This document shows, in pieces, positions 14,368-44,728 of a stretch of DNA of 45,031 nucleotides (position 1 is the stretch's first letter; each line of letters opens with the position of its first letter). A model generated the notes under the pieces. That model saw nothing but the letters and a program-made list of their open reading frames with translations. It searched no databases and was not told where the DNA came from. The DNA is taken from the NCBI GenBank assembly GCA_016213895.1, contig JACQZJ010000079.1, forward strand, positions 1 to 45,031, in the 5' to 3' direction. Both the position numbers and the translations under genes were made by a program. This DNA comes from Planctomycetota bacterium (lineage in GTDB: Bacteria > Planctomycetota > B15-G4 > JADJEK01).

Positions 14368-15690
14368 ATGAACCTGTTGGCCAGGGACCTGTGGCAGGAG
14401 GTGCAGAACGCCTTCCGTGCCGCCCGCGGCCCGGCGGTCGCCGGGCTCTGGCTGCAGCAGGCGCGCCCCCTGGGCTTCGTGCGCGGCGTGTTCACGCTCG
14501 GCGTGCCGAACGAGGTGGTGCGCGACTGGCTCGAGCACCGCTACTCCGCGGAGCTCGAGGGGATCTTCCGCCGGCTCACGGGCAGCGCCGTGCGGCTGCT
14601 CCTCAAGGTGGACGCGTCGCTCCCCGCGGCGGCGGAAGACGCCGCCGGCGCCAAGGGCGAGGAGAGCGGCGGCGCGGCGCCGGAGGCGGCCTTCGTCATC
14701 CGGCCGGAGAACCGCCTGGCGAGCGCCGCGCTGGCGCGCTTGCTCGACGATCCGGCCACGGGCAACCCGCTTTTCCTGTACGGCCCGCCGGGAGTGGGCA
14801 AGTCGGCGCTCGTGCGCCACCGCCTGATCCAGCACCAGGCGGAGCGCGGGGCGCGCACCACGATCAGCGTGACGGCCGACGCGTTCTCCGCCGGCCTGGT
14901 GTATGCCCTGCGCGAGAATCAGCTGCCCGCGTTCCGCGGCCGCATGCTGGCCGCGGAGGCGTTCGTGCTCGAGGAGGCGCACCGCCTGCGCGGCAAGACG
15001 CGCACTCAGCGCGAGTTCCTGTCGGTCCTGCAGTACCACGTGCTGCGCGGCCGGCCGGTGATCCTCACCAGCCGGCATCCGCCGAACGCCATCTTCCTCT
15101 TGGACGAGGGTCTGCGCTCCTACTTCCTCTCGGGCATCCTGCACCGCATCGCCGACTACTCGGTGCCCTCGCGCGCAGCCATCCTCGAGGCCGCCGCGGC
15201 GCGCTTCGCGCGCCCCGTGCCGGCGGAGACGATCGAGCGCGTCGCGCGGCGCGTCAACGGGCCGGTGAGCCGCCAGATCCACTTCCTGGAGAAGGCCGCC
15301 GCCTGCGCCGCGCTCGCGGAACGGCCCGCCACGCTCGAGTTCCTGGGCGGGCGCTTCCCCGAGCTGTCCGGCTCGAGCGAGGGCGAGGTCGACGTCGGCT
15401 CCCTGATCGCGCTCGCGGCTCGCGACTTCGGCTCCACGGCGGAGGACATCGCCTCGAACCGCAAGACGCGCTCGGCCGTGCTCGCGCGCCACGTCGTCGT
15501 CTACGTGGCGACGGTGGTCTTCAACCTCAAGGCGCGCCGGGTGATGCGGCACCTCGGCGGGCTCTCGCCCTCCACCACGGCGTACGCGCGGCGCCGGATC
15601 GAGGAGCGGCGCCGGGATGACCCGGTGTTCGACGCCCGCGTCCGGCGCCTGCTGGCCGAGCTCAAGACCGGCCAAAAGCTGCTCTTCTGA
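14368..15690 (+). CDS. Divergent DnaA-family replication initiator-like ATPase
   Basis: At 440 residues the DnaA order is kept: domain I (DLWQEVQNAF ... VPNEVVRDWLEHRY), an Ala-rich linker, an AAA+ core with Walker A GPPGVGKSA (about 139-147), Walker B FVLEEAHRLRGKTRTQREF (DnaA has ..DDI.FL.GKE.TQEEF), sensor 1 ILTSRHPPN and a C-terminal DNA-binding domain (NRKTRSAVLARH ... LGGLSPSTTAYARRRIEE). Key departures: the arginine finger position (SRF.WGL in DnaA) is SYFLSGI, so Arg is Tyr; and the DNA-contact motif GRDHTT is GLSPSTT. Start ATG 14368 follows GGGGGAG. No DnaA boxes were seen nearby. It may be the chromosomal DnaA of a divergent lineage or a paralog. Confidence 0.8.
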   Translation: MNLLARDLWQEVQNAFRAARGPAVAGLWLQQARPLGFVRGVFTLGVPNEVVRDWLEHRYSAELEGIFRRLTGSAVRLLLKVDASLPAAAEDAAGAKGEESGGAAPEAAFVIRPENRLASAALARLLDDPATGNPLFLYGPPGVGKSALVRHRLIQHQAERGARTTISVTADAFSAGLVYALRENQLPAFRGRMLAAEAFVLEEAHRLRGKTRTQREFLSVLQYHVLRGRPVILTSRHPPNAIFLLDEGLRSYFLSGILHRIADYSVPSRAAILEAAAARFARPVPAETIERVARRVNGPVSRQIHFLEKAAACAALAERPATLEFLGGRFPELSGSSEGEVDVGSLIALAARDFGSTAEDIASNRKTRSAVLARHVVVYVATVVFNLKARRVMRHLGGLSPSTTAYARRRIEERRRDDPVFDARVRRLLAELKTGQKLLF

Positions 15691-25440: not shown

Positions 25441-25494
25441 GGAGAGCGCCGGCCGCGGCCCGGGCGGCTTATTGGGCGCGCCGCCAGCCCGAGC

Positions 25495-40710: not shown

Positions 40711-42399
40711 ATGGCTGATCCACAGACCCCCGACGCGCTCATGGCGGAGGCCGGCACCGGCGAGCAGATCCGGCGCCTGCTGCGCGCCGCGCGCGACAAC
40801 CGCTTCCGCATCATCCTGCTCGGCGCGATCGGCATGATCGTGGGCGCGGGGGTCGCGACCATCGTCCCCGACCTGTACGAGTCGGAGACCAAGCTGGTGC
40901 TGCGCGAGTGGAACCTGGTGGAGGAGACGCGCCTGCTCGCCTCGATCCAGGACCAGCCGCTCGCGGTGAAGGAGGACGTCCTCAGGGAGGAGCTGACGTC
41001 TTTCGAATGGATCCACGACGTGCTGGAGAAGGTCGAGTGGATCGAGTTCGCCGAGGCGCGCGGCGACGGGGCCAAGATGTTCGACCTGGTGAACAAGGTG
41101 CGCGACGAGGCGCACTTCGACATCAAGATGGAGACCAGTTCGGCGGGCGAGCTGCTGGTCGAGCTGTCGTTCCGCTGGTACGACCCGCGGATGGCCCACG
41201 ACTTCGTCCTGCAGACGCGCAGGAACTGGATCGCGCGGCGCATCGAGGAGAGCAACAAGTTCTGGGGCAAGAAGCTGCAGGACGCGGAGAAGCTGTTCCG
41301 CGACAAGCAGGAGACCTACCAGAAGGCCACGGCCGCGCGCCAGCAGTTCATGACCGAGCACGGCCTCTCCTTCATGGACGAGCGCAGCGCCGACAGCGAC
41401 CTGCAGAACGCCCTGGTCGTGCGCCTGAGCGAGCAGCAGGCCAGGATCCGCGAGCTGGAGAGCCAGACGCGGGCGCAGCAGGAGCAGCTCGACGCGACCC
41501 CGGAGAAGATCGACACGCCGATCAAGGAGCGCAACCCGGATTGGGATACCCTCAACACCCAGCTGCAGAGCGAGCGCGGCCAGCTCCAGGAGATGCTCGC
41601 GCGCTACACCGAGACCCATCCCCTGGTGAAGAAGCAGCGCAAGAGGGTGGAGGAGGCGGAGGCGGCGTTCGCGGCGGTCAAGGACCACGAGTTCATCACC
41701 GACACCGTGCGCTCGGAAACGAACCCGGCGTGGCTGGAGATTCGGAAAGCGCTGGACCTCGCCACCGCGATGCTCAGGGGCTACCGCGAGGGGCAGGCGG
41801 ACCAGGAGGCGCAGCTGCAGGAGGTGCACGAGCGCCTCAGCCAGCAGCCGACCTTGCAGAGCGAGCTGCAGCGCCTGCAGAACGAGTACGACGTCGCGCA
41901 GGAGGAGTTCAACCAGGCGAGCAGCGGGATCATGCCGCTGCGCGATCGCATGGAGCTGAAGAAGAAGCAGGGGGGCGGGACCTTCGCCGACGCCGAGGCG
42001 GAGCTGGCGTCGGGCGGCGCCTTCTCGATCCTCGAGGAGCCGGTGGTCGCCGACACCCCGGTGGGCCTGCCCAAGCCGGTGTTCCTCCTCATCGGGCTCC
42101 TGCTGGGCGTGGCCGCGGCCCTGGCCTTCGCGCTCGTCGCGGAGATGGCCCGCTCCACCTTCGACGACCCGGCCGAGGCGGCGCTGGCGCTGCGCCTGCC
42201 GGTCCTCGGAGCCGTGGGCAACATCTCCACTTCCGCCGAGCGGCGCCGGGCGCGGGTGCGCGAGGTGGTGCGCATGGCGGGCAGCGTGCTCATCGTCGCC
42301 GTCCTGGGAGTGCTCGTCTACCTCGTCACCACGCGCCCCGAGGTGCTGCCCGTCCAGGTCCAGGACGCCATCGAGGGGCTGCGCGCCGCCTTCCAGTGA
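40711..42399 (+). CDS. Wzz-like polysaccharide chain-length/co-polymerase protein
   Basis: A 562-residue inner-membrane protein. The first helix is at about 33-53 (RIILLGAIGMIVGAGVATIV) and a long periplasmic coiled coil spans about 160-440 (many heptads, e.g. LRELESQTRAQQEQL-type runs). A GNVR-like segment precedes the second helix (KPVFLLIGLLLGVAAALAFAL), and a third hydrophobic stretch lies near the end (SVLIVAVLGVLVYLV). There is no C-terminal tyrosine kinase domain. Together with the export lipoprotein before it and the transferase after it, it resembles the chain-length protein of EpsH1/PEP-CTERM-type exopolysaccharide loci. ATG follows GGGAGG. Confidence 0.85.
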   Translation: MADPQTPDALMAEAGTGEQIRRLLRAARDNRFRIILLGAIGMIVGAGVATIVPDLYESETKLVLREWNLVEETRLLASIQDQPLAVKEDVLREELTSFEWIHDVLEKVEWIEFAEARGDGAKMFDLVNKVRDEAHFDIKMETSSAGELLVELSFRWYDPRMAHDFVLQTRRNWIARRIEESNKFWGKKLQDAEKLFRDKQETYQKATAARQQFMTEHGLSFMDERSADSDLQNALVVRLSEQQARIRELESQTRAQQEQLDATPEKIDTPIKERNPDWDTLNTQLQSERGQLQEMLARYTETHPLVKKQRKRVEEAEAAFAAVKDHEFITDTVRSETNPAWLEIRKALDLATAMLRGYREGQADQEAQLQEVHERLSQQPTLQSELQRLQNEYDVAQEEFNQASSGIMPLRDRMELKKKQGGGTFADAEAELASGGAFSILEEPVVADTPVGLPKPVFLLIGLLLGVAAALAFALVAEMARSTFDDPAEAALALRLPVLGAVGNISTSAERRRARVREVVRMAGSVLIVAVLGVLVYLVTTRPEVLPVQVQDAIEGLRAAFQ

Positions 42400-43574
42400 G
42401 GATCTGCTACCTCTGCCACCGCATCCCCTTTCCACCGGACAAGGGCGACAAGATCCGCTCCTTCCATCAGGTGGAGTTCCTGGCGCGGCGGCACGAGGTC
42501 GACCTGTTCACCTTCGTGGACGACGCGGCCGACCTGGCGCACGTGGCGGCGCTTCGCCGCATGGTGCGGCGCATCCATGTCGAGCGCCTCTGGCCGCTCT
42601 CCGCGCGCCTCTGGTCGCTGCGCGCGCTTCTCGGGGGCGGGCCGTTGTCCTTCGCCTACTTCCGCCAGGGGCGCCTGCGCGCTGCGCTGCAACGCGCGCT
42701 CAGGAGCGAGTCCTACGACCTGGCCGTGGCCTTCTCCTCGGCCATGGCGCCCTATCTGGACGGCTGGGACGGGCCCCGGGCCCTCGACTTCGTGGACATC
42801 GACTCGGCCAAGTGGCTGGCCTACGCCGAGCAGCTCGGCCGCACGCCGCTCGGCTGGCTCTATGGACGCGAGGGCCGCGCCCTGCGCCGCCTGGAAGGCG
42901 CGCTGGCGGAGCGCGCGGAGCTGACCGTGGTCTGCTCGCCGCGCGAGGAGGAGGAGCTCTGCTCCTTCTGCGCGCCGCGCTGCGCCGTGACCGTGCCGAA
43001 CGGCACGGACGTAGAGCGCTTCTCGCCGGGGGAGTCGCCGCTCGCGCCGCTCGACCTCGTCTTCACCGGCGCCATGGACTACCGCGCCAACGCCGACGCC
43101 GTGCTCTGGTTCGCGCGCGAGGTCCTGCCGCTGGTGCGGAAGGAGCGGCCGGCGGCGCGCTTCGCCATCGTCGGCAGCAACCCGGGGCCGGCGGTCCTGC
43201 GCCTCGGGCGCCTCCCGGGCGTCGAGGTCACCGGCCGGGTCCCGGACGTCTGTCCCTACCTGCGCGCCGCTGCCGTGGCCGTGGCCCCGCTGCGCGTGGC
43301 GCGCGGCATCCAGAACAAGGTCCTGGAGGCCCTGGCCTGCGGCACGCCGGTGGTTGCGACGCGCGCCGCGCTCGGCGGCATCGGCGAGGCGCGCGGCGTG
43401 CTGGCCTGCGAGACGCCGGAGGAGCAGGCCGCCGCCGTGCTCTGCCTGCTGGCGGATCCGGCGCGGCGCGCCGCCCTCGGCGCCGAGGGCCGCGCCTTCG
43501 TGGTGGAGCGCTTCCGCTGGGAGGTGCGCCTCGAGGAACTCGACGCGCTGCTTCGCGTTGCCGCGTGTCGATAG
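42396..43574 (+). CDS. TIGR03087-type sugar transferase (EpsH1/PEP-CTERM-associated, GT4 fold)
   Basis: A 392-residue glycosyltransferase starting at GTG 42396, overlapping the upstream stop. The N terminus RICYLCHRIPFPPDKGDKIRS (GDKIRSFH) with LARRHEVDLFTFVDD is the hallmark of the TIGR03087 (Stp1) family. FVDIDSAKW follows, and the C-terminal half has TVPNGTDVERFSP, FTGAMDYRANADAVLWF and NKVLEALACGTPVVAT, the GT4 donor site. It is cytoplasmic or peripheral to the membrane and adds a sugar to the polymer precursor. It ends the operon before a repeat-rich gap. No exosortase is in the window. Confidence 0.87.
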   Translation: MRICYLCHRIPFPPDKGDKIRSFHQVEFLARRHEVDLFTFVDDAADLAHVAALRRMVRRIHVERLWPLSARLWSLRALLGGGPLSFAYFRQGRLRAALQRALRSESYDLAVAFSSAMAPYLDGWDGPRALDFVDIDSAKWLAYAEQLGRTPLGWLYGREGRALRRLEGALAERAELTVVCSPREEEELCSFCAPRCAVTVPNGTDVERFSPGESPLAPLDLVFTGAMDYRANADAVLWFAREVLPLVRKERPAARFAIVGSNPGPAVLRLGRLPGVEVTGRVPDVCPYLRAAAVAVAPLRVARGIQNKVLEALACGTPVVATRAALGGIGEARGVLACETPEEQAAAVLCLLADPARRAALGAEGRAFVVERFRWEVRLEELDALLRVAACR

Positions 43575-43676
43575 CGGCGGGGCGCGCGGCTGGTTGGGTG
43601 GGTGCCGGAGGGGAAGGGAAGGGAGTGTGAGGAGCGTCGCGGCCGTTTCCCTGGCCTCCGGGAGCGGCAGCGGCTC

Positions 43677-44262
43677 CCGGTGCACTCCGTGCGCGACGAA
43701 CGCGAAGCGGTTCGCTTCTGGTGGAGGCGATGCTCGAAACGGGCGCGGGTGAGAGACGGCAGGCGCCGGTGGCTGAGCCGCCGCGGCCGCTCCCTTCGCC
43801 AGGGAAACGCCGCTCCGCCCCATGAGCCCGGCTCGACTCCCACGCCGGCAGCCGTCGCCACGGGCTGACCGGGAGGCCGTCCCGCGAGAGGTCAAGCGAG
43901 AATCGTGGCGTCCGCGGCCAGACGGGGTGCGGCGTGCCCGAGAGCGGCCACGGCGCCGGCTGGGCTCGCGCACCCTGTCGACGGTGGCGGTCAAGCAAGG
44001 CGGGCCTGCTCTTGCGATCGAAGCCCTCGCGCTTGCTTTGCTTCCTCGTACATGCGGTAGGCGGTCGCGGGCAGGAGCCCGCTCGCGCCCCGGAATGAAT
44101 GCGGCGCACGGGGACGCGCGGTGAGGCGAGCGATCGCGGTCGTTGCCCCGGGGTCCGGGGCCGCATCGCGACTTCCGGTGCATCGCATGCGCGACGAACG
44201 AGCACGGGCTCGTCACGGCGAAGGCGATGCGGGCGGTTCCGTGGCGTGAGAAGCGGCAGGCG
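43677..44262 (+). repeat. B repeats (two copies, about 88 bp)
   Basis: 43677-43765 and 44175-44262. Both open with CCGGTGCA-N7-CGCGACGAAC, followed by a small hairpin of different sequence at the same place (GCGAA-GCGG-TTCGC in copy 1; ACGAGC-ACGG-GCTCGT in copy 2). GGCGATGC and a shared CGGCAGGCG end follow. The stem changes look compensatory. Confidence 0.7.
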
Positions 44263-44635
44263 TGAAGTGGCACGACGTCGCTGGCGGCCCCTGAACCGGG
44301 GAAACGCTGCTCCGCTCGACCGACGCGCCGCCCCGAAGCCCGCGTTCGAGGCGGGCCGCTCCGGTTCGACGTACTTGTGGACGGCGCTCGCGGGCCGGAG
44401 CCCGCTCCCGCCCCGGAATGGGTGCACCGCACGGGGACGCGCGGTGCGGCGAGCGATCACGGCCGGCGTTTAGAGGCATGCGGCGCCGCGGCTGAGCCGC
44501 GGGCGCTCCGCCCGTCGGATCGAGCCACGGCGTCTGGCGCGGCGCGCCGCGTCCGCGCCAGACGTAGGTCGGCGGTCGCGGGCAGGAGCCCGCTCCCGCC
44601 CCGGAATGGAAGCACCGCGCGGGGACGCGCTGTGC
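44061..44635 (+). repeat. A repeats (three copies, up to 79 bp)
   Basis: 44061-44139, 44384-44462 and 44572-44635 (the last shorter). The conserved core is GCGGGCnGGAGCCCGC (a 6-bp stem with tetraloop), then CGCCCCGGAATG and a second hairpin, e.g. GCACCGC-acggggacgc-GCGGTGC in copy 2. Copies 1 and 2 align without gaps. Confidence 0.85.
44532..44563. repeat. 11-bp perfect inverted repeat
   Basis: GTCTGGCGCGG (44532-44542) and CCGCGCCAGAC (44553-44563) with a 10-base loop, immediately before A repeat copy 3. A second stem, CCGCGGC-TGA-GCCGCGG, lies at 44486-44502. Confidence 0.8.
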
Positions 44636-44728
44636 CCGGAAATGTGGCTGCGGGGAGGCCGAAGCGCTGTCCCGCGCCGGCCGGGCCGGTAGAGTCGGGG
44701 CGGTGCGCAGAAAAGAGATCGAGGTCTG

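Follow-up and report, generated by a model that had tools for sequence, protein, structure and literature searches.

Near the right end of the window, the whole stretch of 45,031 nucleotides that was analyzed, profile searches resolve the block at 43575-44728 into a tandem, modular repeat array. The array lies between an upstream glycosyltransferase gene (42396..43574, + strand; Pfam Glyco_trans_1_4, E 9.1e-29) and a downstream gene truncated by the contig end (44729..45031, + strand), the start of which is 90% identical in contig C236 of a congener. A preliminary description had taken both neighbors for glycosyltransferases; this holds for the upstream gene by its Pfam match and not for the downstream one, as its 101-aa fragment matches no Pfam family.

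The modules, all on the + strand, occur in the order D, B, about 210 nt of unique sequence, A, B, C, A, E, A. Module D begins 11 nt past the TAG stop of the glycosyltransferase gene and occupies, together with a G-rich linker, 43585..43631 (nhmmer D match from 43585, the end being the start of B). It is followed by the first copy of B (43632..43820; B covariance model R1, E 4.7e-28) and by the non-repeated sequence (43840..44050), where repeat coverage from the examined loci is 0–2 hits nearly throughout and 8 at the right edge. The remainder comprises A copy 1 (44060..44122; A model, E 5.3e-13), B copy 2 (44128..44317; R1, E 1.7e-36), C (44323..44381; nhmmer), A copy 2 (44383..44445; A model, E 4.3e-14), module E, which replaces C ahead of an A (44478..44566; nhmmer E match from 44478), and A copy 3 (44571..44633; A model, E 1.4e-14). 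This last copy has a terminal hairpin at its end, after which similarity between copies stops. The three A and two B units of the preliminary description are thus present at this place, far above chance. B, which it had given as about 88 bp, is about 190 nt long, and what actually repeats is B-C-A, a unit of 320 nt led by module D; its looser C units are indeed repeats, which separate into the three modules C, D, and E. Elsewhere in the window, a DnaA-like protein (14368-15690; initiator or paralogue) matches, with modest scores, each of the three DnaA domains.

Modules, copy number and distribution

A search of the 5.5-Mb genome with the 1.18-kb block found at least 81 matching places with 40 of the 370 candidates scored (best non-self E 1.5e-121). 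Profiles of four modules, built from the window together with 40 stretches of this genome and 11 of the congener, gave 94 B, 71 A, 62 C, and 34 D matches over 703 kb (nhmmer, E < 1e-3), none of them listed in four stretches from contig starts that served as controls (L052-L055, 73.6 kb). The alternative module E has 18 matches in the examined loci, and all those listed fall inside clusters. Module lengths are about 39 nt (D), 190 nt (B), 59 nt (C), and 63 nt (A), and the B-C-A unit of about 320 bp is repeated in tandem. Order is fixed on one strand (D, B, C or E, A, then B or D again), with a single mixed-strand case among the 125 clusters found in 1.64 Mb of examined loci (89 in the window's genome and 36 in the congener). 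The genome-wide search with a covariance model that the preliminary description had proposed did reveal further copies: the model of B identifies at least 125 in the window's genome, a lower bound obtained with 150 of 14,624 first-look candidates scored. At two places (L026:32-333 and L099:9634-9685) A joins inner B sequence directly at the common TGCA(C/T)CGCG, as if recombined at short similarity.

Among the 98 genomes of a phylum sample, the A model was positive in two, the window's own (G000; 54 of 54 scored) and that of the congener (G001; 53 of 54 scored); with strict filters and draft genomes, the other 96, including two of the same family, gave no match. The congener corresponds to DYIW01, labeled by its depositors as Phycisphaera mikurensis isolate FI88_71_9, an assignment based on an SRP54 protein that is 95% identical and on hit coordinates that are the same as in G001 (73 of 150 scored); this makes the host a planctomycete MAG. 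The family was not found in three further planctomycete MAGs, a distant-mode search of plasmids and phages gave no match, and neither did a strict A pattern over the genome contigs. Weak matches of 31–62 nt in G002, G007, and G037 were taken as chance, since profiles recognized no module in them (best E 0.11). Rfam yielded 0 matches at the gathering score, the best (E 0.34) being to a microRNA model and falling well short of that model's cut-off.

That these modules form a genuine family of dispersed structured repeats is near certain. The family is previously undescribed within the literature searched, where a non-exhaustive search found no description of it, but of an understood kind.

Long-range pairing in module B

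The fold of module B is a long-range palindrome, and compensatory change in it is strong. From 60 full-length copies aligned with MAFFT, RNAalifold derives 30 pairs, 17 of which show compensatory change. Column pair 46-171 ranks first in a structure-free analysis of covariation (AT 37, CG 14, GC 9, and 0 mispairs in 60 copies), and five more of the top eleven column pairs are helix pairs. Over the 25 long-range pairs 96.9% of cells are paired, and 15 of the 25 change on both sides. The covariation score of 0.244 compares with 0.099 (sd 0.006) after shuffling and was reached in 0 of 500 shuffles, a control inflated by kinship among the copies; sliding the partners by 1–3 columns, which is free of that effect but favors a structure derived from the same sequences, destroys the score. 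Whole copies fold at -104.9 kcal/mol with their own halves versus -97.5 with halves swapped between copies, and the folding z of the window copies is -3.8 (B1) and -2.3 (B2). Window modules A1, A2, and C have z values near 0 or above, and A folded alone has 7 pairs, 2 with compensatory change, which is a weak signal.

Stems kept while sequences change, as the preliminary description had it, are therefore a property of the long-range B helix and not of the inner hairpin that it quoted (GCGAA/TTCGC versus ACGAGC/GCTCGT). The latter occurs in both window copies and is unsupported over the 60 copies (mean z -0.23; MFE -7.08 with own arms versus -6.89 with swapped arms). Absence of further copies and of supported covariation had been named as what would tell against selection on structure; because both are present, the sequences support the view that structure is maintained in the lineage that makes the copies.

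Gene neighborhood and comparison with the congener

All gene distances given here rest on custom codon-usage gene calls rather than on a standard gene finder. The upstream gene is co-directional in 73 of the 106 clusters for which one was called (binomial p 1.3e-4) and opposing in 33. In co-directional gaps the element lies in gene sense 27 times and antisense 11 times (p 0.014), with 12 versus 1 for D-first clusters. Most D-first clusters have a co-directional upstream gene (37 of 46), and in 27 of those 37, D is no more than 16 nt from the stop. The nine with an opposite upstream gene are 19–145 nt from a start. Where both neighbors are known, 22 of 22 D-first cases lie within 16 nt of a stop or overlap a gene end, against 7.5 expected for placement anywhere within each case's own gap. 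B-first clusters are farther from stops than D-first ones. At L062 the reading frame enters the element, which supplies a new stop, whereas the gene in the window's genome (L081) reaches its own.

A Pfam scan of 107 of the 111 listed flanking proteins (four genes were omitted) gave 153 families with at most five members each, Glycos_transf_1 accounting for 2 of the 107, and no functional enrichment was apparent among them by eye. An ArfB-like ribosome-rescue gene (L037:10351-10788; NCBIfam PRK09256.1) lies between two module groups, which is odd for repeats that sit at stop codons but possibly a coincidence. In the congener, a PemK/MazF-like toxin gene is found at L095:5492-5836 (C44); at the corresponding place in the window's genome, L136:19009-19246, the gene is absent and a single module group is present.

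The flanks of 28 clusters of the window's genome match congener stretches, two of them (in L026) via modules in the flank. Congener modules lie beside the match in 14 rows (13 sites), often in other numbers (e.g., L061 vs. L051); most other compared rows run out at the end of a contig or into sequence with no match, so that presence cannot be judged there. Since at least 13 comparable sites are common to both species, recent movement seems to be slow. Insertion polymorphism between the relatives occurs at L019/L082, L062/L081, and L116/window. The first is a two-sided empty site, with about 397 bp in L019 versus 23 bp in L082 between flanks that are about 88–89% identical; it retains a short GCACCGCGC, as in A, and could thus reflect a deletion in the other species. 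At the one-sided junctions L062/L081 and L116/window 25490 the element begins exactly at the end of homology. Window 25484-25490 is empty, and the corresponding place in the congener, L116:18130, is occupied by a D-B element at the end of the contig. Neither target duplication nor terminal inverted repeat was seen by eye at the one two-sided and two one-sided junctions.

At the site of the window array, the left congener contig ends in D-like sequence just past the TAG stop of the same gene, and the right one starts with an E-like hairpin ahead of the same downstream gene (90% identical). With these ends beside the same genes, the site is most likely common to both species and its gene order kept, as far as the contigs can be compared.

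Rival readings and origin of the arrays

If each copy worked as an RNA, G-U mismatches would be expected to exceed A-C mismatches in the stems. No such excess was found in B, either over the 1469 cells of the long helix (23 G-U, 21 A-C, 24 other) or among the 47 closest pairs of copies, which are non-overlapping and 80–99.5% identical, include paralogues and mix two genomes (one-side changes: 26 G-U, 21 A-C, 29 other; 21 compensatory and 6 doubly broken). The acceptor stems of 13 tRNAs in the examined loci, a small control, have 4 G-U and 0 A-C in 84 cells. A same-site compensatory test (12 locus pairs, two of which gave none) was set aside because it took the most similar B pair of each locus pair, which for several of them is not from the same site. 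Given that G-U and A-C are about equal, most resident copies would decay without preference for an RNA strand, and the pattern, taken at the level of sequence, argues against each copy acting as an RNA. We read it as neutral decay of resident copies, the structure being kept in the copying lineage; it is no proof of a DNA mechanism.

These figures bear on a rather unlikely alternative, namely that the modules are working 3'-UTR elements which are transcribed past the stop and stall terminating ribosomes, or stabilize or end the mRNA. Such a function would agree with the location of D within 16 nt of co-directional stops, with the long stable fold of the window B copies and with a G-quadruplex motif that fits the G-rich tract in 15 of 58 D regions (e.g., window 43585-43631) versus 0.4% of random 75-mers, and it has an analogy in Escherichia coli REPs within 15 nt of stops, which stall ribosomes according to the excerpted report (PMC12306157). 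It is at odds with the lack of the G-U bias seen in the tRNA control, with the distance of B-first clusters from stops and the 33 of 106 clusters with an opposing upstream gene, and with the differences between the species in the copies present at syntenic places, which imply dispensability. Strand symmetry of the mismatches and wide dispersal between convergent and co-directional genes would rather suit DNA sites for a nucleoid or topology protein, kept for chromosome organization in the manner of BIMEs, which are sites for gyrase or IHF; yet this proposal, which we hold to be highly unlikely, does not account for modules that always run head to tail or for D being anchored to stops, and the family is confined to one genus. 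The preliminary idea of a recombination hotspot that shuffles surface-sugar genes is hardly credible. The MazF/PemK-like gene between same-strand module groups of the congener, where the window's genome has a single group, suggests that repeats may bracket gain or loss; however, the family is spread genome-wide, glycosyltransferases are only 2 of 107 flanking proteins, and the proposed comparison of flanking genes, run against one congener, found both neighbors of the array gap kept. With ordinary flanking genes and conserved gene order, a role in sugar-gene shuffling is not supported.

The array is probably a lineage-specific, non-autonomous, modular mobile repeat, with the look of a genomic parasite. 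This reading accommodates copy number and dispersal, confinement to one genus (2 of 98 genomes), fixed order and strand, the empty site and the differences in unit number, as well as the intact D end at stops, the covariation, the non-directional decay and the mixed flanking genes; against it stand the lack of a linked transposase and of any target duplication or terminal inverted repeat seen. A trans-acting enzyme would recognize folded B/A DNA and insert the unit near gene 3' ends or, instead of such targeting, selection may keep only insertions near these ends. Recombination between copies would then alter array length, and each inserted copy would decay more or less neutrally, so that compensatory changes would record the lineage of active copies. 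A more specific proposal, which we consider unlikely, is that a candidate enzyme recognizes the 190-nt long-range DNA palindrome and inserts D-B-C-A at or just inside gene 3' ends, left end first and in sense orientation, sometimes with a new stop codon, and without inverted repeats or target duplication.

The window's genome has four Y1_Tnp matches (contigs C81, C27, C65, and C49), related genes for Y1 (REP-type) tyrosine transposases, and one of the four proteins matches REP_Tyr_transpos of NCBIfam below cut-off (40 of 80 bits). No module occurs within 1.5 kb of these genes, nor in stretches of 13.5–14 kb around them. The congener has seven Y1 matches, four starting within 61 nt of contig starts, and no module in the stretches examined. 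Mobilization by a RAYT was rejected on proximity, no module being near Y1 genes of either genome in the stretches examined; moreover, such genes are present in relatives that lack the repeat, with a match in 6 of 14 genomes. Regarding a retro-element, the genome has one RVT_1 match, and the region around it (L252) contains no module.

The family works like a BOX-type modular repeat, falls outside the REP definition (length, inverted dimers, flanking RAYT) and is filed in no class. BOX of Streptococcus pneumoniae is described, in the excerpted account, as modular and structured, with a variable number of inner modules and about 125 elements; it occurs almost only in a single species group, strains have about half of its insertions in common, and it is unlinked to gene function and regarded as parasitic (PMC3049150). 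Modularity, fixed order, variable repeats of an inner unit, similar copy number, structure, narrow host range and lack of a link to gene function are common to both. As far as known, the modules and sequence are unrelated. Terminal inverted repeats and target duplications are reported for BOX, neither of which was seen in the present family, and the long-range B helix and the location of D at stop codons do not appear in the excerpted BOX description (PMC3049150).

REP/BIME repeats of the GTAG and CGTC families, as excerpted from their description, are 20–40 bp long (CGTC stems 8–9 bp), number more than 100 copies per genome, form mostly inverted dimers and lie mostly behind genes, no more than 20 bp from the 3' end of a co-directional or convergent gene, for which some of them supply the stop codon (PMC3733652). 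The present family likewise exceeds 100 copies per genome (at least 125 B), lies behind genes and in some cases supplies a stop codon. It differs in the length of B (190 nt) and of the unit (about 320 nt) as opposed to a palindrome of 20–40 bp, in head-to-tail modules (1 mixed-strand cluster of 125) instead of alternating orientation, and in that no RAYT gene is adjacent (4 Y1 loci here, 7 in the congener). Read by eye, many B copies have CGTCGCGG beside the stem and others CGATCGCGG, so that CGTC just ahead of the stem in many copies may correspond to the GTAG or CGTC tag of REPs. IS200/IS605-type non-autonomous elements and REPINs are characterized by hairpins near both ends, no target duplication and HUH Y1 enzymes. 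The present family also has hairpins close to its two ends, target duplications were not seen, and HUH Y1 proteins are present in the genome, but no conserved target tetranucleotide or flanking transposase was identified. Insertion polymorphism between relatives is shared with MITEs, in which target duplications are usual.

For the Planctomycetota, in which few such families were found described, these results add a large one that is modular, covaries unusually strongly and shows a measured anchoring to stop codons. The two congeners, syntenic at about 90% identity and with some insertions in common and others not, provide a ready system to study how repeats move, and suit the question of whether the position at stop codons arises by targeting or by filtering. 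The arrays also help explain the breaks in draft assemblies of this genus, many contigs of which end within arrays.
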